In this document: one piece after another, positions 13,209-25,243 of the stretch
Layout of the letters: every line of letters starts with the position of its first letter
How positions within the stretch are numbered: the first letter of the stretch is position 1
Origin: an uncultured bacterium
Lineage (GTDB): Bacteria > Elusimicrobiota > Elusimicrobia > Elusimicrobiales > Elusimicrobiaceae
Assembly (NCBI GenBank): GCA_949294085.1
Contig: CASFFX010000011.1
Span: forward strand, 1 to 64,000
Direction: 5' to 3'
DNA length: 64,000 nt
Position numbers and translations under genes: made by a program
The notes under the pieces: generated by a model
What the model was told of the DNA's origin: nothing
Seen by the model: only the letters and a program-made list of their open reading frames with translations
Database searches by the model: none

Positions 13209-13283
13209 GCCCAGTTGGCGCAGCGGTAGCGCGTTCCCTTGACATGGGAAAGGCCACAGGTTCGATCCCTGTACTGGGCACCA
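13209..13283 (+). tRNA. tRNA-Val, anticodon GAC
   Basis: A complete cloverleaf with encoded CCA. The acceptor stem is GCCCAGT/ACTGGGC, the anticodon stem TTCCC/GGGAA with loop TTGACAT gives anticodon GAC, and the T-loop is TTCGATC. The length is 75 nt. Confidence 0.95.
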
Positions 13284-13511: not shown

Positions 13512-14516
13512 CTATTTGTTTTGCGCCAGATATTGCTGCAGTTGCGCTCTAAAATCGGCGGCCAATTTCTTTGGGGAAAAAATTATAATATTCGGCAGCC
13601 ATTTTTGGACGGTGGGGAAAATGCTGTTTTTGATTTCCGCCTCATCGCTGCTGACGCACGTGAGGATTAAGCCGTCCGCCGTTTCTTGGAGAATTTGCTG
13701 CTGGGGGAAATAAATTTTCTTTTTGAAATACGACGCAATCGGTTTTTTTACAAACAGTTTAATCGTTTGGGTGGTATGGTCCGAATTAAACCACATGCCT
13801 ACGGCGTGGCGCAGGATGTATTCAATGGCTTGTTTGGGGTCGTGCTCCGGGTTGTAGGCAAAGTGGCGGCATTTTTTATCCGGCTGCACGTTGGCAATGC
13901 TTTCCAAACGGTATTTGATGATTTGGCGGTCAAAATAACCGATGACATACCAAAACCCCTCACTAAAACAAATTTTTAAGGGCTTAAATCCTTTCCAGGC
14001 AATCTTTTTGCCGCTGGCGTCCTTGCGTGTAATCGTTACGGTGTATTTCTTTTGAATGGCTTCCAACAAGGTTTCAAACCCGCTGATTAGTTTCAGCGGT
14101 TCTGCTTGCTGCGGAAACTTGATAAACAGCGGATTGTCCTGGGGGCTTAAGCGCCAATAGGCGCGAAAGACCGCGGGCGACATCCCCAAACTTTCCGCCA
14201 GCGGCTCTATGGTATCGTGGAAAATTTTTTCCTGCTGGGCGTTGGCCAAGCTGTAGCCTTCCTTAAACCCGTAGTTGCCGTGCCCTTTGCGCTCAATGTA
14301 GCACAGGGCCTTTTTCCCTTTGGTTTTCTGCTTCTCTTCAGTCAGGTTCAGGCACTCGTTAAGCAATTTGATGTCCCGCTGCAGGGTGCGGATGTTCACA
14401 TTGGCCATCGCCGCAAAGTGCTGCAAATTAATGCCGCCTGCCGGGGCCGCATCCAACCGGAGCAACAGGATAATTAGCCGTTTTATTTTTTTAATGTCTG
14501 CTTGACGATAGCTCAT
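13512..14516 (-). CDS. WYL-domain transcriptional regulator
   Basis: This 334-residue protein has an N-terminal DNA-binding winged helix of the DeoR/WYL type. It includes a helix-turn-helix near residues 30-60 (LQHFAAMANVNIRTLQRDIKLLNE). A WYL domain follows at about residues 150-230 with the diagnostic segment FWYVIGYFDRQIIKYRLESI. WYL proteins sense a ligand, often nucleic-acid derived, and act as repressors or activators. The C-terminal part resembles the WCX extension. It is divergent from the TPR/autotransporter operon across a 95-bp gap that holds an inverted repeat, so it may control that operon. The target and ligand are not shown by the sequence. Confidence 0.85.
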   Translation of the reverse strand: MSYRQADIKKIKRLIILLLRLDAAPAGGINLQHFAAMANVNIRTLQRDIKLLNECLNLTEEKQKTKGKKALCYIERKGHGNYGFKEGYSLANAQQEKIFHDTIEPLAESLGMSPAVFRAYWRLSPQDNPLFIKFPQQAEPLKLISGFETLLEAIQKKYTVTITRKDASGKKIAWKGFKPLKICFSEGFWYVIGYFDRQIIKYRLESIANVQPDKKCRHFAYNPEHDPKQAIEYILRHAVGMWFNSDHTTQTIKLFVKKPIASYFKKKIYFPQQQILQETADGLILTCVSSDEAEIKNSIFPTVQKWLPNIIIFSPKKLAADFRAQLQQYLAQNK

Positions 14517-14524
14517 ATATATTG

Positions 14525-14540
14525 CGACACGTAGTTGTCG
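14525..14540. promoter_or_regulatory. Inverted repeat, possible operator for the WYL regulator
   Basis: CGACA-N6-TGTCG is a perfect 5-bp dyad. It lies 9 bases from the WYL start codon and about 30 bp upstream of the putative -10 box of the divergent operon. Confidence 0.4.
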
Positions 14541-14570
14541 TGAAAATCCTTAGTCCAATTTTGTTTTTAT

Positions 14571-14576
14571 TATACT
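14571..14576 (+). promoter_or_regulatory. -10 box of the TPR/envelope operon
   Basis: TATACT lies 36 bases before the first TPR start codon in an AT-rich stretch. The -35 region is not consensus. Confidence 0.4.
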
Positions 14577-14611
14577 AATTTTACACCGAATACAGACAAA
14601 GGGGAAACAAA

Positions 14612-15829
14612 ATGAAAAACACGCGGAATTTGAATCACGAACAAGCAGCCACTTATAAAGAAATGGGCGATCAATATCAGACCTGGTCGGATTATGAACA
14701 AGCCGTGGAATATTATGATGCGGCCCTGCAGCTGGACCCGGCCTACGCTGCCGCCTATGACATGCGCGGCGTTGCCAAAGCCATGGACGGTAGTGCCCAA
14801 GAAGCCTTGGCGGATTTTGACCAAGCCATCGCCCTGGCGCCGGAAAATGCGGATTTTTACAACAACCGCGTCAACGCCCATACGGAATTGCAGCAGTATG
14901 ATTTGGCCTTGGCGGATTTTTCCAAGGCTCTCGCGCTGCAGCCTAAACATGCCATGGCTTTCTACAGCCGCGGCCGGATGTATGCCGATTTGGGACAGTA
15001 TCAACAGGCTTTGGAGGATTTTGACCAGGCCATTCGGCTGAATCCGACACACGCCGCCACGTATTATCACCGGGAAGTAATGAAACAGAAACTGGAAGCC
15101 CAAGGCCTTTCTGTCCCGGATACGGACGAACGGTTCAAAGAAGTTTCTTTTAGTGATTGTTTTTTTGCCAATCGCGGGATTGCGCGGGATTACTTGGGCC
15201 ATTATGAAGCGGCGATTTCCGATTTCAGCCAGGCCATCGCACTGAACCCGTCTTGCGGGGGGCACTATTACAACCGGGGGCAGTCCTGCTTGGCCGCCAA
15301 GCGTTACAAGCAGGCCGTTGCCGATTACACCCAAGGCCTTCGCCTGCACCCGGCGGCCAGCGGATATCTGGGCCGCGGACAGGCTAATTTTCACCTCAAG
15401 CGTTATGCGGACGCGTTGGCCGATGTCCAGCACGCTCTTGCGTTGGAGCCGCAGGCGGCAGAAGCGTATGCCTCGCAGGGGCAAATTCACTTGATGACGA
15501 ACCAGCTTCCACAGGCCGTTTCCGATTTGGATAAAGCGTTGGAAATCAACCCTTTTGATGCGGACGCCTTAGCCAACCGCGGCCACGCCAACTACCAGTT
15601 GGACAAGTACGAAGAAGCCTTGGCGGATTTGAAGAAGTCGCTTTTAATTAAACCGCAGCAGCCCAACGTAAGTTTGCTGTGCGCCGCCTGTCATAGCGAG
15701 CTTAAGGCGTATGACCAAGCCGCCGCGGACTGCCGGGACGTCTTGCAAATAGAGCCGGGCAATCCCCTGGCCAAACGCTGGCTGCAGCACCTGCGGCAAG
15801 ATCACGCCCGGGAACGCCGCCACCCCTAA
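14612..15829 (+). CDS. TPR-repeat protein (first gene of envelope operon)
   Basis: This 405-residue protein is made almost wholly of tetratricopeptide repeats, about ten. Units follow the pattern Y-x-x-A-L-x-D-F-x-x-A-I-x-L-x-P (for example DLALADFSKALALQP and QQALEDFDQAIRLNP). One non-canonical stretch at about residues 155-185 interrupts the array. There is no signal peptide, so it is probably cytoplasmic and acts as a binding scaffold. The start at 14612 has AAAGGGG upstream. A second TPR gene follows after 34 bp. Position ahead of the exported genes suggests a chaperone or assembly role, but this is inference. Confidence 0.85.
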   Translation: MKNTRNLNHEQAATYKEMGDQYQTWSDYEQAVEYYDAALQLDPAYAAAYDMRGVAKAMDGSAQEALADFDQAIALAPENADFYNNRVNAHTELQQYDLALADFSKALALQPKHAMAFYSRGRMYADLGQYQQALEDFDQAIRLNPTHAATYYHREVMKQKLEAQGLSVPDTDERFKEVSFSDCFFANRGIARDYLGHYEAAISDFSQAIALNPSCGGHYYNRGQSCLAAKRYKQAVADYTQGLRLHPAASGYLGRGQANFHLKRYADALADVQHALALEPQAAEAYASQGQIHLMTNQLPQAVSDLDKALEINPFDADALANRGHANYQLDKYEEALADLKKSLLIKPQQPNVSLLCAACHSELKAYDQAAADCRDVLQIEPGNPLAKRWLQHLRQDHARERRHP

Positions 15830-15863
15830 GCGGGCCGCCCGTTGAAAAAGGAGGGAAGAATTT

Positions 15864-16919
15864 ATGAAAAAGAACGAGGTAACTTTTGACCCGATGGCCG
15901 CAGAAGCGTTGGCGGCCCGTGCCGAGCGCGCCCTGAACGAAGGAAATTTTGCGCAAGCACTGGCGGAGCTGAACCAAGCTATTCAATTCTGCCCGGCCCA
16001 TGCGGATTTGTATTTTTTGCGCGGGCAAGCGTACCAAGCCATGGGCAAGTGGGCTCCCGCGCTGGAAAATTATCAGGCCGCTATAGAGCGCAATCCCCAG
16101 TGCCCCCGCTATTATTACAATGGCGGCTGTGTGCTGTATTTCCAACAGCAATGGCAGGAAAGTTGGACGTATTTGAAAAAATTTCTCAGCTTGGAGCCCG
16201 AAGTTCCCGGGCCGGCCCGGAGTGCGCACTTTTTCTGCGCCCGGTGCGGCATTGCCTTGGGGCGGCTGCCCGAAGCCTTGGCACACATAGACGCGTCCCT
16301 GCGGCTGGCGGCTTCAGCGGATAAACAAGTGCGGTCGGAAATGTATTTAACCCGAGGCAGTATTTTAGCGGGATTGGAAAAGCAGGAAGAATCCCTTCGC
16401 GATTTGCAACAAGCCTTGGCCCTTACCGTGCTTCCTCTTCAGCAGGCGGAAATACACTATCTGATGGGATATGTGGGGGAGGAGCAGAAGCGTTACCGGT
16501 TTGCGCTGGCGGAGTACAACCAAGCCCTTGCGTTAGACCCAGCCCATTGGCGGGCTTATTTTAACCGCGGCATGCTCCGGCGGGATTATCAGGAGGACGT
16601 TCCCGGCGCCCTGGCCGATTTGGAGCAAGCGGCCCGGCTGCAACCCGATGTAGCCGTTGTTTATTACAACCGGGCGGGGTTGTATGCCCGGCTTAAAAAA
16701 AACGCGCAGGCCCTGGCGGATTACACCCGAGCCATTGACCTGGACCCCCATAACGGCGCGTACTATTATGGGCGGGCGCGGGTATATTGGATGCTGGGAC
16801 AATGGACCCAGGCAGAGCAAGACGTGCGGCGGGCACACGAATACGGACACCCGACGGGGCAGACACGAATAGATCCTGTCCGCCAGAACGGACCAAAGGA
16901 CAACGCAACACCCAGGTAG
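15864..16919 (+). CDS. TPR-repeat protein (second gene of envelope operon)
   Basis: This 351-residue protein has about eight tetratricopeptide repeats, including ALAELNQAIQFCP, ALENYQAAIERNP, ALAEYNQALALDP, ALADLEQAARLQP and ALADYTRAIDLDP. There is no signal peptide and no membrane segment. A strong Shine-Dalgarno (AAGGAGG) precedes the start at 15864. It resembles its upstream neighbour in type but not closely in sequence. It ends in a proline- and charge-rich tail after the last repeat. Two strong hairpins begin at its stop codon. Confidence 0.85.
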   Translation: MKKNEVTFDPMAAEALAARAERALNEGNFAQALAELNQAIQFCPAHADLYFLRGQAYQAMGKWAPALENYQAAIERNPQCPRYYYNGGCVLYFQQQWQESWTYLKKFLSLEPEVPGPARSAHFFCARCGIALGRLPEALAHIDASLRLAASADKQVRSEMYLTRGSILAGLEKQEESLRDLQQALALTVLPLQQAEIHYLMGYVGEEQKRYRFALAEYNQALALDPAHWRAYFNRGMLRRDYQEDVPGALADLEQAARLQPDVAVVYYNRAGLYARLKKNAQALADYTRAIDLDPHNGAYYYGRARVYWMLGQWTQAEQDVRRAHEYGHPTGQTRIDPVRQNGPKDNATPR

Positions 16920-16978
16920 GGCCCGCGTGAGGGCGGGCCCCCAAGGGGGCAGGTCAAAACCTCATCCTGCCCCTTTGG
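16919..16978 (+). promoter_or_regulatory. Two tandem hairpins inside the envelope operon
   Basis: The first is a perfect 8-bp stem GGGCCCGC/GCGGGCCC with a 6-base loop. The second is a 13-bp stem (16941-16953 with 16966-16978, one G-U pair) with a 12-base loop. Neither is followed by a T-run, so a simple terminator is unlikely. They separate the TPR pair from the four exported genes and could affect mRNA processing or stability. Confidence 0.55.
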
Positions 16979-17068
16979 AAAACCCGCGCGACAAGAGGCT
17001 GTCGCAGAGGAGTTGTATCGTATGGAAAAACAGGGGCCGAGGGCTCCTGCACCAAACGGGGGAAAACT

Positions 17069-17590
17069 ATGAAAAAACGTGGTTTACTGTTTATTTGTCT
17101 GCTGCTCTTGTTGTCTTTCGCACCGACGGCGCAGGCCGCCAAGCACTTTACGTTGGATGAAGGGCTGACGGAAGCGGCGGAAAAAATCGGCGGCAGCGCC
17201 CGCATCGCGCCCCAAGCCAATTTGGCGGTGGTGGGGTTTGTGGAAAGCACCCGCCGCACGCGCCTGCCGCTTAGCAGTGTATTGGAGGACGATTTAACCT
17301 CGTTCTTAACGGAAAAGCGGCCCGGGCACGTGGTCGCCAAAAACAATATTGATACGGTGTTGCGCGAGCTGCGCATTACGCGGGACGATTTGTTTGACAG
17401 CCGCCACCGCAAACAATTTGGCAAATTGGCTTCGGCGGATTTGCTGGTCAGCGGCAATTATTGGATTAATCGGCGGGATGTGGTCATTAATATCACGGTC
17501 ATAGACATAGAAAGCGGATTGGCGCTTCTGTCGCACCGCGTGAAAATCCGCAAGTCGCAGTTTGCAAAATATTTATTAGGTATGGATTAA
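17069..17590 (+). CDS. FlgO-like exported protein
   Basis: This 173-residue protein starts with a clear signal peptide (LLFICLLLLLSFAPTAQA, cleavage after AQA) and has no lipobox cysteine. The mature part has LAVVGFVES, a region LSSVLEDDLTSFL, then KLASADLLVSGNYW and VVINITVIDIESGLALL. This order recalls the FlgO domain and, more distantly, CsgG-type outer-membrane assembly proteins: a V-x-F opening strand, a gene-product-defining 'ADLLVSGNY' strand and an 'IDIESG' strand. FlgO helps build an outer-membrane ring around flagella in vibrios. No flagellar gene is nearby here, so a different envelope role is likely. The start at 17069 has GGGGG upstream. The next gene starts 10 bp after the stop. 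Confidence 0.6.
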   Translation: MKKRGLLFICLLLLLSFAPTAQAAKHFTLDEGLTEAAEKIGGSARIAPQANLAVVGFVESTRRTRLPLSSVLEDDLTSFLTEKRPGHVVAKNNIDTVLRELRITRDDLFDSRHRKQFGKLASADLLVSGNYWINRRDVVINITVIDIESGLALLSHRVKIRKSQFAKYLLGMD

Positions 17591-17600
17591 AGGAGAGACT

Positions 17601-18236
17601 ATGAAAAAAGAACTGATGTTGGGCCTGCTGGCAGCAGGCGTTGGACTGCTGAGTGCGTGCGGCTCTAAAAATGTGCTGCAAGCGCCGCAGCTGCAGGTAA
17701 AAGTAGTGGAGACAATCCCCGCTACTTCCGCTCCCGATTGGGTAAACAGCACCCGGGAGTTTTGGGAACAAGGCGGCCAGTATTTTTACCGCGGAACGGC
17801 CGAAGGATTTGCCAACCTGGAAGCCGCCAAACGCGCGGCGGCAGCCGGGGCGCGGGTCAGTTTGGCCGAGCAGGTAAAAAATGTGGTGCGAAATGAATTC
17901 TCGCGGGCGTTGGAAGCGGGCACTTATGATGAAACGACCGGCGGATACCTGAAAGACGTGTTTTTCTCCGCGGTGGATAACATCACCTTAAGTGGCGTGC
18001 AGATTCGCGAGTCTTATCTGCAGCACCTGCTGGAAACGGGAGACCGGGCCGAACGCCTGTATTACCGCGCTTATGTTTTGGCGTCTATCAGCCAGAGCGA
18101 TTACAACAAGCTCGTCCGTGCGGCTTTTAGCGATACCCAAGCGCAAGTAGCCGCCAACAAGAGCGCCAAACAGCTGGCGGCGGAAACGGAAGCCCGTTTT
18201 TGGGCGCAGCAGGAAAAGGACGAGGTCCCGCAATGA
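17601..18236 (+). CDS. LPP20-type lipoprotein (first of two)
   Basis: This 211-residue lipoprotein has a signal sequence ending in the lipobox L-L-S-A-C at residue 20, so it is expected to be lipidated and outer-membrane directed. The mature part opens with APDWVN and continues with a strand (YFYRGTAEGFANLEAAKRAAAAGARVSLAEQV). This is the layout of the LPP20/FlgP family: P-x-W, a G-x-A strand, and an Ala-rich helix. The C-terminal half has a second strand pair (RLYYRAYVLASIS) and a helical tail. AGGAGA precedes the start. The last four bases overlap the start of the next gene (ATGA), indicating translational coupling. Confidence 0.7.
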   Translation: MKKELMLGLLAAGVGLLSACGSKNVLQAPQLQVKVVETIPATSAPDWVNSTREFWEQGGQYFYRGTAEGFANLEAAKRAAAAGARVSLAEQVKNVVRNEFSRALEAGTYDETTGGYLKDVFFSAVDNITLSGVQIRESYLQHLLETGDRAERLYYRAYVLASISQSDYNKLVRAAFSDTQAQVAANKSAKQLAAETEARFWAQQEKDEVPQ

Positions 18237-19006
18237 AACACCTGGTCCTTTTTCTTCTCTTGGGGATATGGGGGGGCGGATGTGTTTCCGCCCCTCAGAT
18301 GCCGCCCTGGGCCGGAAGAAATTGGCAGGAAAAACAGGTTTTTTATTTTAGCGGAATTTCTTCCGGCTGTACCAACGTGGCCTGCGCCCAGGCCGAAGCT
18401 TACCACAATGCTTCCGCCAGTATCGCCGCCTTTTTGGGAACTACCGTATCGTTGGAGACGGAAGGCATGCTGGACAATAACGGGCAGTATTTGCAGGTCC
18501 ATTTTTATTCCGCCACGCGGGAAGTGCCGCTTAGGCATATTCAAGTGGAACAATTTACCGTGTCCCGCGCGCGGCAACAGGTAACGGGGTATGTGTTGGT
18601 GTCCGTGCGGCAAAGCGAAATCCAGGCGGCGTTGGCCCAAATCCAGCAGGAAGCGGAACAGCAAAAAAAGCAGCGGCAGCAGCGGCGCCGGCTGGGGGTT
18701 ATTTCCGTGCATGCCCCGCGGCATTGGAACGATTTTGCCGGGCAAATGAATCAATTTTTAAGCCAAGCCGGATACGTTACCGGCACAAACGGCCGCGGTT
18801 TATTTGTGCAAGTGGAGGCATTTGCCTGCGATTCCAGCCGGTTGCAAGACATCCAAATTTGCGCCTTGCAGGCAAAAGTGCGCTTTGGCCCGCGCGAGTT
18901 TGTTTATAGCGCCAAAGGGTACGGCCGCACGTTGGCCCAGGCGCGGCAAGAGGCCATCCGGGCGTTGGTCGGGCAAATTCCGCAGGATATTTTGGAGGGA
19001 AAATGA
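18233..19006 (+). CDS. LPP20-like lipoprotein (second of two)
   Basis: This 257-residue protein has a short signal sequence with lipobox G-G-G-C at about residue 17. Its N-terminal half repeats the LPP20-like layout (PPWAGRNW, FYFSGISSG, an Ala-rich helix AEAYHNASASIAAFLG, then GYVLVSVRQSE). A Gln/Lys-rich helix of about 30 residues follows. A second domain of about 100 residues contains paired cysteines (FACDSSR and IQICAL) and an Ala-rich helix at the end. The start at 18233 overlaps the upstream stop by 4 bp, and its own stop overlaps the autotransporter start by 4 bp. It is probably an outer-membrane partner of the neighbours. Confidence 0.65.
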   Translation: MKHLVLFLLLGIWGGGCVSAPQMPPWAGRNWQEKQVFYFSGISSGCTNVACAQAEAYHNASASIAAFLGTTVSLETEGMLDNNGQYLQVHFYSATREVPLRHIQVEQFTVSRARQQVTGYVLVSVRQSEIQAALAQIQQEAEQQKKQRQQRRRLGVISVHAPRHWNDFAGQMNQFLSQAGYVTGTNGRGLFVQVEAFACDSSRLQDIQICALQAKVRFGPREFVYSAKGYGRTLAQARQEAIRALVGQIPQDILEGK

Positions 19007-21081
19007 AGAAAATTTTATGCTTGTTATGCGTGTTTTTGGGCTCGGTTTTCCCTGCCCGGGCGGATAAGACCGTGATGAATAATCCCTGGGGGTACAGCTA
19101 TTACACGCCGGCCCATTTAAGCAATTTGTCTTTTCAAGACATTTCCTCGGCCCAGGCCGCCAATGCGGTATTTGTGTATGGAACGACGGTCAATTTTGAT
19201 GAGGTGGATTTCAAAAACAACACCAGCCACGGCCTTTACCTGCACGCCGTCAACGGCCCCATTACGCTGAACCATATGTATTTTTATAATAACACGGGGG
19301 GCGCGGCGTCCTTTTGGCAGAGCCAGCAAACCATCCGCAATTCGGTGTTTAGGCACAATTCCCACGCTTCCGGCTTTGGCGGCGCTTTGTATATCCCCAA
19401 TCCGCATACGTTAACCGCCAGTCAGCTTTCCTTTTTGGACAACAGCGCCGAAAAAGGCGGCGCCCTCTACGCCGGGGATCAGCTTACTCTGCAGGGCGGC
19501 GGCATTACTTTTGCCCATAACACCGCGTTGCAGGGCGGCGGCATTTACGCCAGCCGGGATTTAACCTTAGCGGCCACCGGCGGGGACATCCTTTTTTCCG
19601 GCAATGAAGGCGGGGCGGTGTACATGGCCAACGGCACGCTTACCCTGCGGCCGGCCGGCGGGAACATTATTTTTAAGGATGACATTTTGGGGCCTGCCCG
19701 GGTGAATATTGTGGTGGCGGGGAACGGAAGCGGCCAAGCCCAATTTTATCAGGCCCTTTCCAATGCCTCTGTTTCCTTGCAATCCGGGTTGGCCTATTTT
19801 AACCCGCAGGCACGTTGGACGGCGCTGGTCTTGCAGGCGGACGGCGGAAGTTTGTATTTATCGGACGGCCAGACCGCCGGGTTAAATTTGGGCGAAGTGC
19901 GTTTGAACCGCGATTTGCATCTCGTCCCGGAGGTCAATTTGCAAACGGACACGATGGACAGCCTGGATTTGGATCGGGTGTCCGGTACGGGGGCCGTGGT
20001 GGTGGACCGTTTTGATTTGCTGCGAGAGGACACCCAACAGCCTTCTGCAGTGGATTTTATGACGGGCGCAAAACCCGAGGTCCGCCTGCCGCGCACGGTA
20101 AACGGCAGTATCTACGCCTACGATGTTTCTTACAATCCGGCCACCGGGCAGATTGTCTTTGTTCCGCGGGCTCCGGGCGTGGCCGGGGCCGACCCTTCCG
20201 ACAGCGCCAGTTTTAATCCGTCCGTACTGGTGCAGCCCCTGCGTTCTTATTTGGCGCTTCATATGCTGCAGGAGTCTATGTCGCCCCTGCAGCACCGCCG
20301 CCAGAGCCGTTTCCTGCATTACGACGATGCCGCCGCTTCTTTTTACGTAACCCCGTACTTAACGGGCGGGCGTGTGAAATTTACCAATCATTTGCAGACG
20401 GATACGTCCCTTTCCGGAGTTCAAGCCGGGTGGACGAGTGCGGATTGGGGCCTGGCCGAGCGTTTTGCAATTACGGGCGGTTTTAACGTGGGCTTTGTGG
20501 GGAGCAAAAACAAATATCAAAACAGGCAGTTGGATATGAGCGGCTATCAAGCGGGGGCTGAATTAAATATTTACAGCGGGAACTGGTGGCTGGGATTGAC
20601 GGGGCAGGCGGCCGCGGTGTCCTCGGAAGCATTAAACGAAAAACAAACCCAGCCCGCCTTATGGGGGGCGGCGGCGGTCAAATGGCACCTTCCTTTGAAC
20701 GACAACGGCTGGATTTTGGCCCCTTATGCGCAGGCCGGGTATGGATGGGTCCGCCGCGGCGAGGATCAGCGGCAGGGAAACGCTACATTAACGGGCGGCG
20801 TGTTTTCGTTGATACAGCTGCAAGGAGGGGCGGAAATCATCAAATCGTATAATGACCTGTGGCATTGGTATATAGGGGGCAGTATGGTTCGGCAAATTAC
20901 TCGGGCCGATGTGTTTTATGCAAACGACGCCCGTTTGCCGGAGTTTGAAACGGCCCCTTTTGTACAGGTGCAGGCGGGATTTCAAACCGAAACGGACGGC
21001 CGCTGGATGTGGGGCGGTGCTTTGACGGGGAGTTTGGGCGCGGTGCAGCAATTTGGCGTTCAACTTATCGTGCAGTTTTAA
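19003..21081 (+). CDS. Pmp-type autotransporter
   Basis: This 692-residue exported protein has a signal peptide (ILCLLCVFLGSVFPARA). The passenger, residues 30-400, has repeats like those of chlamydial polymorphic membrane proteins: F-x-x-N (FKNNTS, FYNNTG, FRHNSH, FLDNSA, FAHNTA, FSGNEG), each followed by G-G-A or G-G-G-I-Y. This predicts a beta-helix. The last 270 residues form an autotransporter barrel with alternating strands and a final Phe (QLIVQF). Its start overlaps the preceding lipoprotein stop by 4 bp, so it is made from the same mRNA. A likely view is that the two lipoproteins and the FlgO-like protein help its surface assembly. Confidence 0.85.
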   Translation: MKKILCLLCVFLGSVFPARADKTVMNNPWGYSYYTPAHLSNLSFQDISSAQAANAVFVYGTTVNFDEVDFKNNTSHGLYLHAVNGPITLNHMYFYNNTGGAASFWQSQQTIRNSVFRHNSHASGFGGALYIPNPHTLTASQLSFLDNSAEKGGALYAGDQLTLQGGGITFAHNTALQGGGIYASRDLTLAATGGDILFSGNEGGAVYMANGTLTLRPAGGNIIFKDDILGPARVNIVVAGNGSGQAQFYQALSNASVSLQSGLAYFNPQARWTALVLQADGGSLYLSDGQTAGLNLGEVRLNRDLHLVPEVNLQTDTMDSLDLDRVSGTGAVVVDRFDLLREDTQQPSAVDFMTGAKPEVRLPRTVNGSIYAYDVSYNPATGQIVFVPRAPGVAGADPSDSASFNPSVLVQPLRSYLALHMLQESMSPLQHRRQSRFLHYDDAAASFYVTPYLTGGRVKFTNHLQTDTSLSGVQAGWTSADWGLAERFAITGGFNVGFVGSKNKYQNRQLDMSGYQAGAELNIYSGNWWLGLTGQAAAVSSEALNEKQTQPALWGAAAVKWHLPLNDNGWILAPYAQAGYGWVRRGEDQRQGNATLTGGVFSLIQLQGGAEIIKSYNDLWHWYIGGSMVRQITRADVFYANDARLPEFETAPFVQVQAGFQTETDGRWMWGGALTGSLGAVQQFGVQLIVQF

Positions 21082-21104: not shown

Positions 21105-21137
21105 GCAAAAAACCCGGCCTAAGGCCGGGTTTTATTT
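21105..21137. terminator. Bidirectional terminator
   Basis: An 8-bp stem ACCCGGCC/GGCCGGGT with a 3-base loop has A-runs on the left and T-runs on the right. It lies between the converging autotransporter and ChaN-like genes. Confidence 0.88.
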
Positions 21138-21143
21138 GCAAAC

Positions 21144-22406
21144 TTAGTGCCGCCCGCGCTTGTTTTTTATATAAGAAGGCTTTTTGGGTTTGGACAAGAG
21201 GGGGAAGTCTTTCGGGTCGATCAAAATGCGCATATCAAACCCGGCTGCGCGGCGCAGAACGGGGTCGTCCCACGTCAGCACTTTTTGCTCCAAAAACGGA
21301 TAGCGGAATGAGTCCAGCAAGTCCAGCGCGTGGAACGGCGTTTCTTCGTCTGCTTCGCGGGTCAACAGACTGATGACAAACGTCTTTTCCTTCGGCAGTC
21401 GCGAGCCGACGGACTGGGAAGATTGATAATTTACGTGCATTTCCCCGGCATAAATAATAAACAGCGCGTCCGGATAGCGTTTGCGCAGGGTTTGGATTTC
21501 CTGCAGCCACGCTTGGTTGCGCAGGCGTACGCCTTCCGGCATGGCAAAAGTGGCTACCAAGGTGGCGTCTTCTTCATGTTCCAGCAGGGTGGATTCCACG
21601 ACGGTTCCGCTTTCCGAATAAAAGACAAAGCGCGGTTCCAGCCCGCGTACGTTAATGCCCAATTTTTGGGCGGCCAGCAACAGGTGGGCATAGTCCGGGT
21701 CGGCCGTTTGCATTTTTTGAAGCGGTAATTTTTTGGCGGCCCCCGCGGGCAAAAATTCCGTCAGCAGAAAAATTTTCCGTTCGGGGTTTTGGGCCTTGTA
21801 TTGCCGCAAAAAGCGAATCAACAACGCTTGAATAACCGGTTGATTGTGCTCTTCCCCCAACAGCAAATAATCGGCGTCCGGGGGCACGCGCTGCAGCATG
21901 GCTTGGCTCAGGGAATCTATATCCCAAGTTTGATGGGGAAATTGAACCCGCTTTTTCCATAAAGCAGGCGCCCAGCGGCGGGCGGTGGCCAGGGCTTGTT
22001 CGCGGTCGCGGATTAAAGCTTTTAAGGCGCGGTTATTGGCCGCCAAAAAATAGTTTTGCTTGGCCTCGGCAGAAAGCCGTTTCCAAAAGGGCACTTCGTC
22101 ATAGGGGCCCGTCAAGGGGCGCCGTGCCTTCCAAAAAAAGGGATTGTCTGCGGGCAGTTCTTCGGCAGACCAGAGGTTCAGTTGCTCCCGCGGAATAGGC
22201 GGCAGCTGTTTGCGCGTCCGCGGGACGCGGTTCTTCAAAATCCGCTCCACCTTGGAAGGCGTGAGCTTGGTCTTGGTAAACGCTCGTTTGAAGGGGGAGA
22301 CTGCGTTTGTCAACCCTTGCGCCGCCGCTTGCTGCCCCGGCCAAACGCACAGGGTAAGCAAGGCACCCAAGAAAAGCGTACACAAAAGGCGGCTTCGTTT
22401 TTGCAT
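21144..22406 (-). CDS. Exported ChaN/TIKI-like protein (tandem copy 1)
   Basis: This 420-residue exported protein has a signal peptide ending QQAAAQ. The start at 22406 has AGGAG seven bases upstream, which favours it over a longer reading from 22442. The core at about residues 180-340 has DYLLLGEEHNQPVIQALLI, IFLLTEFLPAG, GLEPRFVF and ALFIIYAGEMHVNY. This matches the pattern of the ChaN-like/TIKI superfamily: a G-E-x-H at the start and a G-x-x-H later. ChaN in Campylobacter binds haem, and TIKI/TraB relatives are metal-dependent peptidases. A family-specific N-terminal region (PPIPREQL) and C-terminal tail (LTWDDPVLRRAAGFDMRIL) are shared with the next two genes. The substrate is unknown. 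Confidence 0.72.
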   Translation of the reverse strand: MQKRSRLLCTLFLGALLTLCVWPGQQAAAQGLTNAVSPFKRAFTKTKLTPSKVERILKNRVPRTRKQLPPIPREQLNLWSAEELPADNPFFWKARRPLTGPYDEVPFWKRLSAEAKQNYFLAANNRALKALIRDREQALATARRWAPALWKKRVQFPHQTWDIDSLSQAMLQRVPPDADYLLLGEEHNQPVIQALLIRFLRQYKAQNPERKIFLLTEFLPAGAAKKLPLQKMQTADPDYAHLLLAAQKLGINVRGLEPRFVFYSESGTVVESTLLEHEEDATLVATFAMPEGVRLRNQAWLQEIQTLRKRYPDALFIIYAGEMHVNYQSSQSVGSRLPKEKTFVISLLTREADEETPFHALDLLDSFRYPFLEQKVLTWDDPVLRRAAGFDMRILIDPKDFPLLSKPKKPSYIKNKRGRH

Positions 22407-22438
22407 AAAGAGGCTCCTAAAAAGGGAAAAATAATCCT

Positions 22439-22559
22439 GCATTTTACGTCTGATAATATCTTAACCGTTTCGTCGGGCCGCGGCCAGGGCCCTTGGACCT
22501 ACTTGGGGTTGGGCCAAAAGACCTGCAAATAAAAAGCCCCGTCGGCAGACGGGGCTTGG
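22439..22559 (-). repeat. ~120-bp direct repeat, copy A (upstream region of ChaN-like copy 1)
   Basis: This block is highly similar base for base to 23852-23973. On the minus strand it holds the terminator of copy 2, a conserved middle (CCCAAGTAGGTCCAAGGGCC at its core) and an AT-rich TATTAT region that may be the promoter of copy 1. It probably arose with the tandem gene duplication. Confidence 0.8.
22529..22558 (-). terminator. Terminator of ChaN-like copy 2
   Basis: A 9-bp stem AGCCCCGTC/GACGGGGCT is followed by a T-run on the minus strand, just after the stop of copy 2. Confidence 0.88.
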
Positions 22560-22568
22560 AAACTTCGT

Positions 22569-23822
22569 TTAATCTAGCGGTTGATATAACGCTTTTAAGA
22601 ATTTTCCGACTCTCCCTTTTGGAAAATCGTTTTGATTGAGCACAATGCGCATGTCAAATCCGGCGGCGCGGCGCAGGGCGGGGTTATCCCACGTCAGCAA
22701 GCGTTGTGCAAAAAAAGGATATTTGGCCTGACCGACAAAATCCAAAAGGTCGTGTATCTTTGGATCGTTTGACTTTTGATAAAAGAAGGTAATCAGGAAG
22801 GTCTTGTCGGCCGGCAGTTGGCTGCCGATGGAGAAGGGCACGAGATAATTTACGTGTTCCGTCCCGGCCCAAATAATAAACAATGCATCCGGGTTGTGTT
22901 TGCGCAGGTTTTGAATATTGGCTATCCATTGGCGGTTGCGCAGGCGCATGCCTTCTGCCGTAGCCGCTGCGGGCACGACGTTTGTGCCCTCTTCCAAAGC
23001 GAAGGCTTCGTGGGCTACTTCCACTTTTGTATCGGAAAAACACACAAAGCGCGGTTCCAACCCGCGGACCAACATCCCCATTTTTTGGGCCGTGTCCAGC
23101 ACATGGGCATAGCTGGGGTCCGCTTCCTTCATGGTTTGCAGGAGTAAGGGTTTTATGCCGCCGCTGGGTAAAAATTCCGTCAGCAGAAAAATCTTCCGGT
23201 CCGGGTTCTGCGCGCGCACCTGGCGCAAAAAGCGCGCCATTACCGTATGCATGGCCGGGAATTCGTGTCTTTCACCAAGCAACAGGTAATCTGTATTTTT
23301 TGGGATGCGCTCCAGCATAATTTTAGTCAGGTCGGCGGTTTCCAAGGGCTGATCCCCTGTTTTTACGCGGTTTTTCCACAAAATGGGCGCCATCCGTTTG
23401 GTATTGTTAAATACTCGGGATCGGCGTTTGAGGAACGTTTTTAAGGCACGGTTGTTGGCCGCAATGAAATAGTTGCGCTTGGCTTCGGAGGAAAGCTGGT
23501 CCCAAAACGGGATGTTTTCATACGGGCTGGAAAGCGGACGGCGGGTTTCCCATTTGGAAAAACGGACAATGGGCAGCTTTTCCACGGGCCAGTATCCAAG
23601 TTGTTTTTTGGGAATAGGCGGCAGTTGTTTGCGCGTCCGCGAAACGCGTTCCTTCAAAATCCGCTCCACTTTGGGAGGGGTGAGCTTGGTCGTGGTAAAC
23701 GCTCGTTTGAAGTGGGAGGCTGCGTTTTTCACTCCTTGTGCCTCCGCTTGCTGCCCCGGCCAAACGCACAGGGCAAACAAGGTAAAGGGAAGACAAAATA
23801 AAAGGCGGCTTCGTTTTTGCAT
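22569..23822 (-). CDS. Exported ChaN/TIKI-like protein (tandem copy 2)
   Basis: This 417-residue protein is a close paralogue of the genes on either side. It has a signal peptide ending QQAEAQ, with the start at 23822 supported by AGGAG, as in copy 1. The core motifs are DYLLLGERHEFPAMH (G-E-R-H instead of G-E-E-H), IFLLTEFLPSGG, GLEPRFVCF and ALFIIWAGTEHVNY. The shared tail LTWDNPALRRAAGFDMRIVL is present. In the extended frame upstream of the signal peptide nothing is conserved. A role in haem or metal handling, or periplasmic proteolysis, is possible from the superfamily. The sequence does not decide. Confidence 0.72.
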   Translation of the reverse strand: MQKRSRLLFCLPFTLFALCVWPGQQAEAQGVKNAASHFKRAFTTTKLTPPKVERILKERVSRTRKQLPPIPKKQLGYWPVEKLPIVRFSKWETRRPLSSPYENIPFWDQLSSEAKRNYFIAANNRALKTFLKRRSRVFNNTKRMAPILWKNRVKTGDQPLETADLTKIMLERIPKNTDYLLLGERHEFPAMHTVMARFLRQVRAQNPDRKIFLLTEFLPSGGIKPLLLQTMKEADPSYAHVLDTAQKMGMLVRGLEPRFVCFSDTKVEVAHEAFALEEGTNVVPAAATAEGMRLRNRQWIANIQNLRKHNPDALFIIWAGTEHVNYLVPFSIGSQLPADKTFLITFFYQKSNDPKIHDLLDFVGQAKYPFFAQRLLTWDNPALRRAAGFDMRIVLNQNDFPKGRVGKFLKALYQPLD

Positions 23823-23851
23823 AAGGCGGCTCCTAAAAGGGGAATCATCGC

Positions 23852-23973
23852 GCATTTTACGTTTGATAATATCTTAACCGTTTCGGCGTGCCGCAGCCAG
23901 GGCCCTTGGACCTACTTGGGGTTGGGCCAAAAGGCCTGCAAACAAAAAGCCCCCGTCGGAAGGCGGGGGCTTG
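23852..23973 (-). repeat. ~120-bp direct repeat, copy B (upstream region of ChaN-like copy 2)
   Basis: This matches 22439-22559 with few differences. It contains the terminator of copy 3 and the likely promoter region of copy 2. A third, much diverged version appears around 25330-25412, upstream of copy 3. Confidence 0.8.
23944..23972 (-). terminator. Terminator of ChaN-like copy 3
   Basis: A GC-rich stem (AAGCCCCCG / CGGGGGCTT region) is followed by T residues on the minus strand, right after the stop of copy 3. Confidence 0.85.
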
Positions 23974-23983
23974 AAAACAGGGT

Positions 23984-25243
23984 TTAATCTTGCGGGGGAT
24001 AGAGCTCTTTTAAGAGCTTGCCGACTTTCCCTTTCGGAAAATCTTTTTGATTGAGCAAAATGCGCATGTCAAATCCGGCGGCGCGGCGCAAAGCCGGGTC
24101 ATCCCACGTCAGCAAGCGCTGCGTAAAGAAAGGATATTTCCCCTGGCCGGCAAAATCCAACACATCGCAGGGTTCCGGATTGTTCAAATCCTGAGAATAT
24201 ATGTCAATCAGAAAGGTCTTTTCGGCCGGGAGGTGATTGCTGATGGATAATGGCGTAAGATAGCCCAAGTGTTCCGCACCGGCCCAAATAATAAACAGTG
24301 CGTCCGGGTTGTGCTTGCGCAGGGCTTGGATATCGGCTATCCATTGGCGGTTGCGCAGGCGGATGGCTTCCGGCGTAGCCGCCGCGGGTACGATGTTTTC
24401 GTCCACTTCCAAAACAATGTCTTTGTGGGCTACTTCCACTTCTGCATCGGCGAAAAACACAAAGCGCGGTTCCAGCCCACGGACCAACATCCCCATTTTC
24501 TGAGCCGTATTCAGCACATGGGCATAGCTGGGGTCCAGCTCCTTCATTTCCTGCAGTTTTAAGCGTTTCATGGCCCCTCTGGGCAAAAATTCCGTCAGCA
24601 GAAAAATTTTCCGGTCCGGGTTCTGCGCACGCACCTGGCGCAAAAAGCGCACCAACACCGAATGCACGGCCGGGCTTTCGTGTTCTTCGCCAAGCAGCAG
24701 GTAATCCGTATTTTTGGGCATACGGTCCAGCATGATTTTAGTCAGGTCAGCGATTGCCAAGGGCTGGTCCCCGGTTTTTACGCGGTTTCTCCACAGCACA
24801 GCCGCCATCCGTTTGGTATTGGTAAACGCTTGGTCGCGGAGTTTGATGAACGTTTTTAAGGTGCGGTTGTTGGCCGCAATGAAATAGTTGCGTTTGGCTT
24901 CGGAGGACAGCTGATCCCAAAACGGTATATTCTCATACGGGTTGAAAAGTGTGCGGTGGGTTTTCCATTTTGTAAAACTGACAATGGGTAGCTCTTCCGC
25001 GGGCCAGAACTCCAATTGTTTGTTGGGAATAGGCGGCAGTTGTTTGCGCGTCCGCAGAACGCGTTTCTCCAAAATCCGCTCCACTTTGGTAGGGGTGAGC
25101 TCGGGGGAGGAAAACGCCCACTTTAAGCTGCGGACCATGCGCCGTGAAAAACTTCGTGCGGCTAAATCCGGCGCGGGAAATCCTGCCGAAATCAACAACA
25201 TCCCTGCTAAAACAAGTGTCAGCCGTCCCCGATTTGGTTTCAT
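23984..25243 (-). CDS. Exported ChaN/TIKI-like protein (tandem copy 3)
   Basis: This 419-residue protein shares its body with copies 1 and 2 but has a different signal peptide (LTLVLAGMLLISAGFPAPDLAA). Motifs are DYLLLGEEHESPAVH, IFLLTEFLPRGA, GLEPRFVFF, ALFIIWAGAEHLGY (G-Y replaces N-Y) and LTWDDPALRRAAGFDMRILL. The start at 25243 is supported by GGAGGAG. Copies 2 and 3 look closer to each other than either is to copy 1, judged by eye from shared stretches such as RNRQWI and VLRKH-type segments. The 5' region is only weakly similar to the duplicated promoter blocks of copies 1 and 2. Confidence 0.72.
   Translation of the reverse strand: MKPNRGRLTLVLAGMLLISAGFPAPDLAARSFSRRMVRSLKWAFSSPELTPTKVERILEKRVLRTRKQLPPIPNKQLEFWPAEELPIVSFTKWKTHRTLFNPYENIPFWDQLSSEAKRNYFIAANNRTLKTFIKLRDQAFTNTKRMAAVLWRNRVKTGDQPLAIADLTKIMLDRMPKNTDYLLLGEEHESPAVHSVLVRFLRQVRAQNPDRKIFLLTEFLPRGAMKRLKLQEMKELDPSYAHVLNTAQKMGMLVRGLEPRFVFFADAEVEVAHKDIVLEVDENIVPAAATPEAIRLRNRQWIADIQALRKHNPDALFIIWAGAEHLGYLTPLSISNHLPAEKTFLIDIYSQDLNNPEPCDVLDFAGQGKYPFFTQRLLTWDDPALRRAAGFDMRILLNQKDFPKGKVGKLLKELYPPQD

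Follow-up and report, generated by a model that had tools for sequence, protein, structure and literature searches.

The stretch of DNA analysed here (the window) comprises 64,000 nucleotides of contig 11 (CASFFX010000011.1, assembly GCA_949294085.1) of the 1.51-Mb, 95%-complete genome of an uncultured member of the Elusimicrobiaceae. It carries a four-gene unit encoding a FlgO-like protein, two putative lipoproteins (LPA and LPB) and an autotransporter (AT), preceded by genes for two TPR proteins and a WYL-domain regulator. We favour, tentatively and at somewhat less than an even chance, the explanation that this is an accessory, island-borne and WYL-regulated module in which the three partners help to assemble or anchor the autotransporter. 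One argument is conservation: the four-gene unit is intact at several loci in a few gut-type Elusimicrobiota, 6 of about 65 genomes of the same genus, in all six with the order FlgO-like, LPA, LPB, AT and with gaps of −17 to +12 bp. Since both order and coupling recur in six genomes, the arrangement is not due to chance. The genomes compared are denoted by handles (G000 etc.). An open reading frame check of the window confirmed the genes from TPR1 to AT as real, and the relevant features are as follows.

13209-13283, plus strand: tRNA-Val(GAC), found by ARAGORN and Rfam.
13512-14516, minus strand: WYL-domain transcriptional regulator, divergent from TPR1 (Pfam WYL, 30.6 bits against a cut-off of 21.8).
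14525-14540, no strand: palindrome CGACACGTAGTTGTCG, candidate WYL operator in the divergent WYL/TPR1 promoter region (motif count).
14612-15829, plus strand: TPR protein 1 (TPR1), without signal peptide (Pfam TPR families).
15864-16919, plus strand: TPR protein 2 (TPR2), without signal peptide (Pfam TPR families).
16989-17004, no strand: palindrome CGACAAGAGGCTGTCG, second candidate WYL operator, 65 bp 5' of the start codon of the FlgO-like gene (motif count).
17069-17590, plus strand: FlgO-like, CsgG-fold periplasmic protein with signal peptide and without lipobox (Pfam, alignment).
17601-18236, plus strand: LPA, LPP20-like lipoprotein (lipobox LSAC, LPP20 score below the cut-off, profile match to LPB).
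18233-19006, plus strand: LPB, two-unit LPP20/LptE-like probable lipoprotein (AlphaFold2 model, structure matches, alignments).
19003-21081, plus strand: AT, Pmp-repeat autotransporter with signal peptide, beta-helix passenger and C-terminal barrel ending in F (Pfam, profile match).
21109-21133, plus strand: terminator-like hairpin AAAACCCGGCC-TAA-GGCCGGGTTTT 3' of AT (read directly from the sequence).

The last four genes are spaced by +10, −4 and −4 bp, signal sequences can be read at the start of all four, and AT is the terminal gene, in agreement with the initial annotation, which had described an almost gapless set of exported proteins (one 10-bp gap, two 4-bp overlaps) ending in an autotransporter. 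Five other genomes of the genus carry a close orthologue of the FlgO-like gene (84-57% identity), and close relatives of LPB are confined, within the genus, to the six unit-bearing genomes. The comparison of gene order proposed at the outset found AT regularly together with the FlgO/LPP20-like genes, in all six genomes where its upstream side is visible; its only other orthologue (G041) is truncated where a 3.2-kb contig begins. Profile matches to unrelated families, or an autotransporter standing apart from its unit, had been named as outcomes that would speak against the proposal, and neither was found for this AT.

The module follows tRNA-Val in G000 and G050 and lies elsewhere in G010, G046, G016 and G044. 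The same tRNA-Val is followed by a conserved gene, with no module there, in G008, G020, G001, G033, G016 and G010, and in G050 this conserved gene starts 14.7 kb 3' of tRNA-Val, past the module. Because it occurs at varied genomic places the module is accessory, and it is probably carried on islands. An island delimited by a target-site repeat of tRNA-Val was considered and rejected. The end of the tRNA is repeated over 14 bp at the distal border of the G050 insert, which can be called suggestive at most, as 9 of 200 random 72-mers have one, and no repeat of the tRNA-Val end was found in the window. The tRNA itself is the sole Rfam match.

AT has Pmp repeats and is probably a classical type Va autotransporter. 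It scores 29 bits for Chlam_PMP (cut-off 20.6), 34.9 for POMP_repeat (cut-off 15) and 30.1 for Beta_helix (cut-off 25.9); Chlam_PMP is found in all seven AT relatives, Beta_helix in five of the seven, and all seven members have a terminal F. Pfam scans of these seven detected no Pmp middle domain (E up to 0.1) and no direct match to the autotransporter barrel PF03797. By profile comparison, the last 290 residues of AT match the barrel of an autotransporter in G322 (1e-8 over 227 columns, pairwise profile E-values being uncalibrated), and this barrel itself scores 54 bits for PF03797. The search of solved structures with the AT profile returned one weak match. AT is probably an adhesin or a surface shield. 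Autotransporter passengers usually diverge faster than barrels. The passenger and barrel of AT are equally diverged, for example with 66%/66% and 53%/54% identity.

For the two lipoproteins, firm LPP20 membership is not supported, as LPA (14.4 bits) and LPB (13.7 bits) both miss the Pfam LPP20 (PF02169) cut-off of 25.9. Weak LPP20 matches recur in 11 of 23 LPA relatives and four of six LPB relatives, and profile comparison relates LPA and LPB to each other (probability 96.9). On this sequence likeness, LPP20-like appears a fair description of both, below the level of family membership. The lipobox of LPA (LSAC) is clear, with a cysteine kept in all 23 aligned relatives; the cysteine of LPB sits in a weaker, less typical lipobox (GGGC). 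The AlphaFold2 model of LPB has two alpha/beta units and a mean predicted local distance difference test score (pLDDT) of 82.7, and the model of LPA (pLDDT 47) was too poor for a structure search. The best solved matches of the LPB model are LptE-family lipoproteins (E 5e-6, probability 1.00, template modelling (TM) score to target 0.41-0.52, low TM-score to the query), followed by PqiC and GNA1162; Lpp20 was not among the 50 matches listed. Sequence searches of solved structures with the FlgO-like, LPA and LPB profiles yielded no usable match. Because LptE is the lipoprotein that partners the LptD barrel, the modelled likeness is suggestive, and hints that LPB might also be a barrel partner.

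The FlgO-like protein has a mixed identity. It passes the Pfam cut-off for CsgG (PF03783, 23.1 bits against 20.8), misses the one for FlgO (PF17680, 20.1 against 22.6) and shows a weak match to LpoB below cut-off (17.8 against 22.3). The FlgO match is seen in seven of its eight relatives (Pfam, E up to 0.1). Thus the FlgO assignment of the initial annotation stands as a likeness, now joined by likeness to CsgG, and not as firm membership. That the protein forms a CsgG-type pore through which the AT passenger is secreted, as the passed CsgG cut-off could suggest, is hardly credible and was rejected in view of size, partial match and absent lipobox: the protein has 173 residues, too short for the CsgG membrane hairpins as judged by length only, the match spans only 61 of the 210 model positions (37-96), and the aligned FlgO-like sequences have no cysteine at the signal cleavage region. 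Besides, AT has a barrel of its own. A flagellar-type outer-membrane ring formed by the FlgO-like and LPP20-like proteins, as a relic of FlgO and FlgP, is very improbable. In favour of a ring one can cite the weak FlgO and LPP20 similarity, together with the SHS2-like fold common to FlgP, Lpp20 and FlgT and the rings built by FlgP and FlgT (PMC12222027). The likeness to FlgO, FlgP and FlgT of vibrios and Campylobacterota and to Lpp20 of H. pylori concerns weak sequence similarity and the presence of outer-membrane lipoproteins (PMC12222027, PMC11756786). However, here the FlgO and LPP20 scores stay under the cut-offs, the FlgO-like protein is not a lipoprotein, the neighbours are non-flagellar and the partner is an autotransporter. 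Furthermore, FlhA (PF00771), which belongs to the flagellum and injectisome, was not found in the 95%-complete genome whereas control genomes were positive. This bears out the earlier remark that no flagellar gene is present, and without an FlhA homologue no flagellum is involved. In another family of the order (L037:8737-10244 and L038:9691-11114) a FlgO-like protein of about 35-37% identity is encoded ahead of an exported protein of 290-319 residues without Pfam match, with no LPA, LPB or AT nearby.

The regulatory part of the module required more revision. The WYL gene had been counted within 14517-21081, but it lies just outside this range on the minus strand. Its product has a WYL domain behind a helix-turn-helix that itself scores below cut-off (17.1 against 25). 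Alignment of the DNA 5' of the FlgO-like gene in the six genomes revealed the palindrome CGACA-N6-TGTCG, of which the window holds two exact sites against 0.03 expected. At the FlgO-like promoter, G050 and G044 carry an exact copy, and G046 and G010 a copy with a single mismatch. G016, whose unit has no adjacent WYL gene, has lost it; in G044 the contig begins inside the TPR gene, which leaves the WYL side out of view. The copy in the WYL/TPR1 region deviates at one position in G050 and at more than one in G046 and G010. The WYL gene adjoins the module in G000, G050, G046 and G010, and a TPR1 orthologue does so in G050, G046 and G010; TPR2 is absent in G050.

TPR2 and the FlgO-like gene are 149 bp apart. 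The second palindrome in this interval makes two co-regulated units plus a divergent, self-regulating WYL gene likelier than the single six-gene operon of the initial annotation, which is not upheld. The promoter and terminator scan gave no signals above chance. The proposal that the WYL protein is the regulator gains from the shared palindrome, which links its gene to both halves of the locus, and loses the notion of one operon with six genes. As cytoplasmic helpers the TPR proteins are not substantiated further; adjacency and the shared palindrome are what stands behind this claim.

Seven genomes (G044, G000, G050, G046, G010, G016 and G040; loci L192-L204) together contain 26 exact palindromes. 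The counts per genome exceed a reversed-pattern control only in G044 (13 against 2), so that only the position of the sites is informative. In this respect 20 of the 26 lie at most 120 bp upstream of an open reading frame start, whereas random positions from these loci do so in 9% of cases; six of the 26 are at WYL-family genes. Other sites lie 5' of defence-like genes, whose names were assigned by reading the sequence: an HsdM-like gene in G044, a DUF262-like gene near a Cas9-like gene in G050 and a dynamin-like GTPase gene in G000. CGACA-N6-TGTCG thus looks like a genus-wide WYL operator, with many putative sites just 5' of accessory, defence-like genes. BrxR and CapW are WYL regulators of defence operons that bind palindromes at their own and at the defence-operon promoters (PMC9122601, PMC9122588). 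The system described here resembles them in the WYL domain and in the inverted repeat at its own and a second promoter, as in R-BOX1 and R-BOX2 of BrxR (PMC9122601, PMC9122588), but differs in having 5-bp arms and a 6-bp spacer and in apparently controlling an envelope operon.

This raises the question whether the module could be the surface arm of a phage-defence programme with a defence-type WYL switch, acting for example by blocking adsorption. Such a role would fit either reading of the lipoproteins, as autotransporter helpers or as a maintenance unit (see below), and it would agree with the palindromes 5' of defence-like genes, with the RecD-like, BrxL-like and ankyrin proteins encoded in the G050 island, and with the precedent of BrxR and CapW. 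We nevertheless consider it quite unlikely, since the four exported proteins have no match to a defence family, WYL regulators also serve other functions, and the other operator-borne genes were identified by skimming only.

The distribution of LPA and LPB outside the genus bears more directly on the role of the three partners. A phylum-wide LPA profile search found strong relatives in another class, in family f21 (E down to 1e-79). LPA is repeatedly near different outer-membrane barrels, although most of these cases come from one family. A small barrel (OMP_b-brl) lies directly upstream of LPA in G306, G307, G318 and G320; the OMP_b-brl match exceeds the cut-off in G306 and G318 and is weak in G320, and in G307 the assignment is by likeness. 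In G322 an autotransporter and a 540-residue protein precede LPA. This repeated proximity is the best hint that LPA serves barrels. The G322 locus (L161:2920-9312) appears to be an operon of a 1383-residue autotransporter, the one with the PF03797 barrel mentioned above, a 540-residue coiled-coil-rich exported protein and LPA; a 38% identical relative of the 540-residue protein adjoins LPA in G040. Two LPP20-like genes are also found in G003 (L102:4463-10439), together with exported proteins of 236, 503 and 659 residues, of which the 503-residue protein has a FlgT-like layout by eye. The LPA tree has few supported branches and does not by itself separate transfer from inheritance.

Several observations weigh against a dedicated role of the partners in autotransporter assembly. 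LPA is followed by a relative of LPB in G246, G304, G305, G302 (twice), G306, G307, G318, G320 and G321, and no AT is present downstream in the six of these with a visible downstream side (G304, G305, G306, G318, G320 and G321). Since such pairs occur in another class without AT, LPA-LPB looks like an older core, to which AT and the FlgO-like gene appear to have been added in this genus. Within the genus LPA occurs once without the rest (G040), beside proteins of 267 and 510 residues and a second LPA-like gene, and such genes are lacking next to the remaining Pmp-repeat autotransporters of the genus. The LptE-like fold is widespread among outer-membrane lipoproteins, as the matches to PqiC and GNA1162 illustrate, the TM-scores to the LPB query are low, and the match does not resolve which half of LPB is aligned. 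That LPB and AT show similar divergence was rejected as evidence of co-evolution: LPB diverges fast in the absence of AT as well, and the similarity is therefore no argument for a link.

In view of the above, the FlgO-like protein, LPA and LPB could instead form an envelope-maintenance unit of the LpoB/LPP20 sort, with AT as co-transcribed cargo without physical link. The pairs without AT in another class are consistent with this, as are the LPP20/LpoB cluster in G070, the LpoB and COG3014-like genes upstream of LPA-LPB in one case (G302) and the weak LpoB match of the FlgO-like protein. In the G070 and G302 clusters LPP20-like lipoproteins stand beside a protein of CsgG/LpoB fold, and in G302 LPA-LPB is itself part of such a cluster; the module of the window differs in having no COG3014-like gene and a CsgG-fold protein under the LpoB cut-off, and in ending in an autotransporter. 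A maintenance unit would also leave unexplained that in the genus the coupling of AT to LPB invariably involves just a few bases, that this AT always accompanies the unit when its upstream region can be seen, and that LPA relatives recur beside barrels. This explanation is the main rival and only a little less likely than the one we favour. The outer-membrane device for AT that was originally proposed is thus borne out as far as the linkage is concerned (six of six genomes), and its dedicated character is weakened by LPA-LPB pairs without AT and by autotransporters without helpers. The most far-reaching version, namely a dedicated CsgG/FlgO and LPP20/LptE device for a classical autotransporter, island-borne and under a defence-type WYL switch, with LPA proteins more broadly as barrel partners throughout the phylum, is less likely than not.

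If the partners do assist the autotransporter, as we favour, the following course of events can be considered. The WYL regulator would bind CGACA-N6-TGTCG in its own divergent promoter and in the promoter of the four-gene operon, so that the WYL gene, the cytoplasmic TPR pair and the operon could respond together through the shared site. The operon would then yield AT together with the FlgO-like protein, LPA and LPB in translationally coupled amounts. Like classical autotransporters in general, AT presumably passes the inner membrane through Sec and relies on BAM for insertion, and LPA and LPB, to judge from their signal sequences, may be located at the inner face of the outer membrane. There the FlgO-like protein, LPA and LPB could aid assembly of the AT barrel or hold it to the outer membrane or wall. 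The helper set would work like SadB and TpgA, having been built in this genus around an LPA-LPB pair of older origin.

Co-transcribed autotransporter helpers are already known (PMC8151025), which supports this explanation. SadB of Salmonella and TpgA of Acinetobacter are co-transcribed with the trimeric autotransporters SadA and AtaA, respectively (PMC8151025, PMC3953254). The likeness lies in a lipoprotein or periplasmic helper gene coupled to an autotransporter gene and in a proposed role in biogenesis or anchoring; as read from the genes, the −4 bp gaps and the coupling kept in six genomes match co-transcription of this type. In contrast to SadB and TpgA, the autotransporter is here probably a classical one, with Pmp repeats, and has three partners, which are CsgG/FlgO- and LPP20/LptE-like. 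Pfam scans of the three partners showed no domain related to SadB or TpgA; no direct comparison was made. The known dedicated helpers serve a few trimeric autotransporters, and LPP20/CsgG-type helpers of a classical autotransporter would be new if true. A literature search found no paper on autotransporter operons of Elusimicrobiota or on LPP20-autotransporter operons, and the arrangement is unusual, as was initially supposed. If the explanation is correct, non-flagellar members of the poorly understood LPP20 and CsgG families would acquire a function open to testing. With the shared palindrome as a guide, a WYL regulon covering both envelope and defence-like genes can be predicted in this uncultured lineage.

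On the other side of AT, at 21144-25243 on the minus strand, three tandem genes encode similar exported proteins of about 420-430 residues, the first of which has a weak ChaN/Tiki match just under the cut-off.

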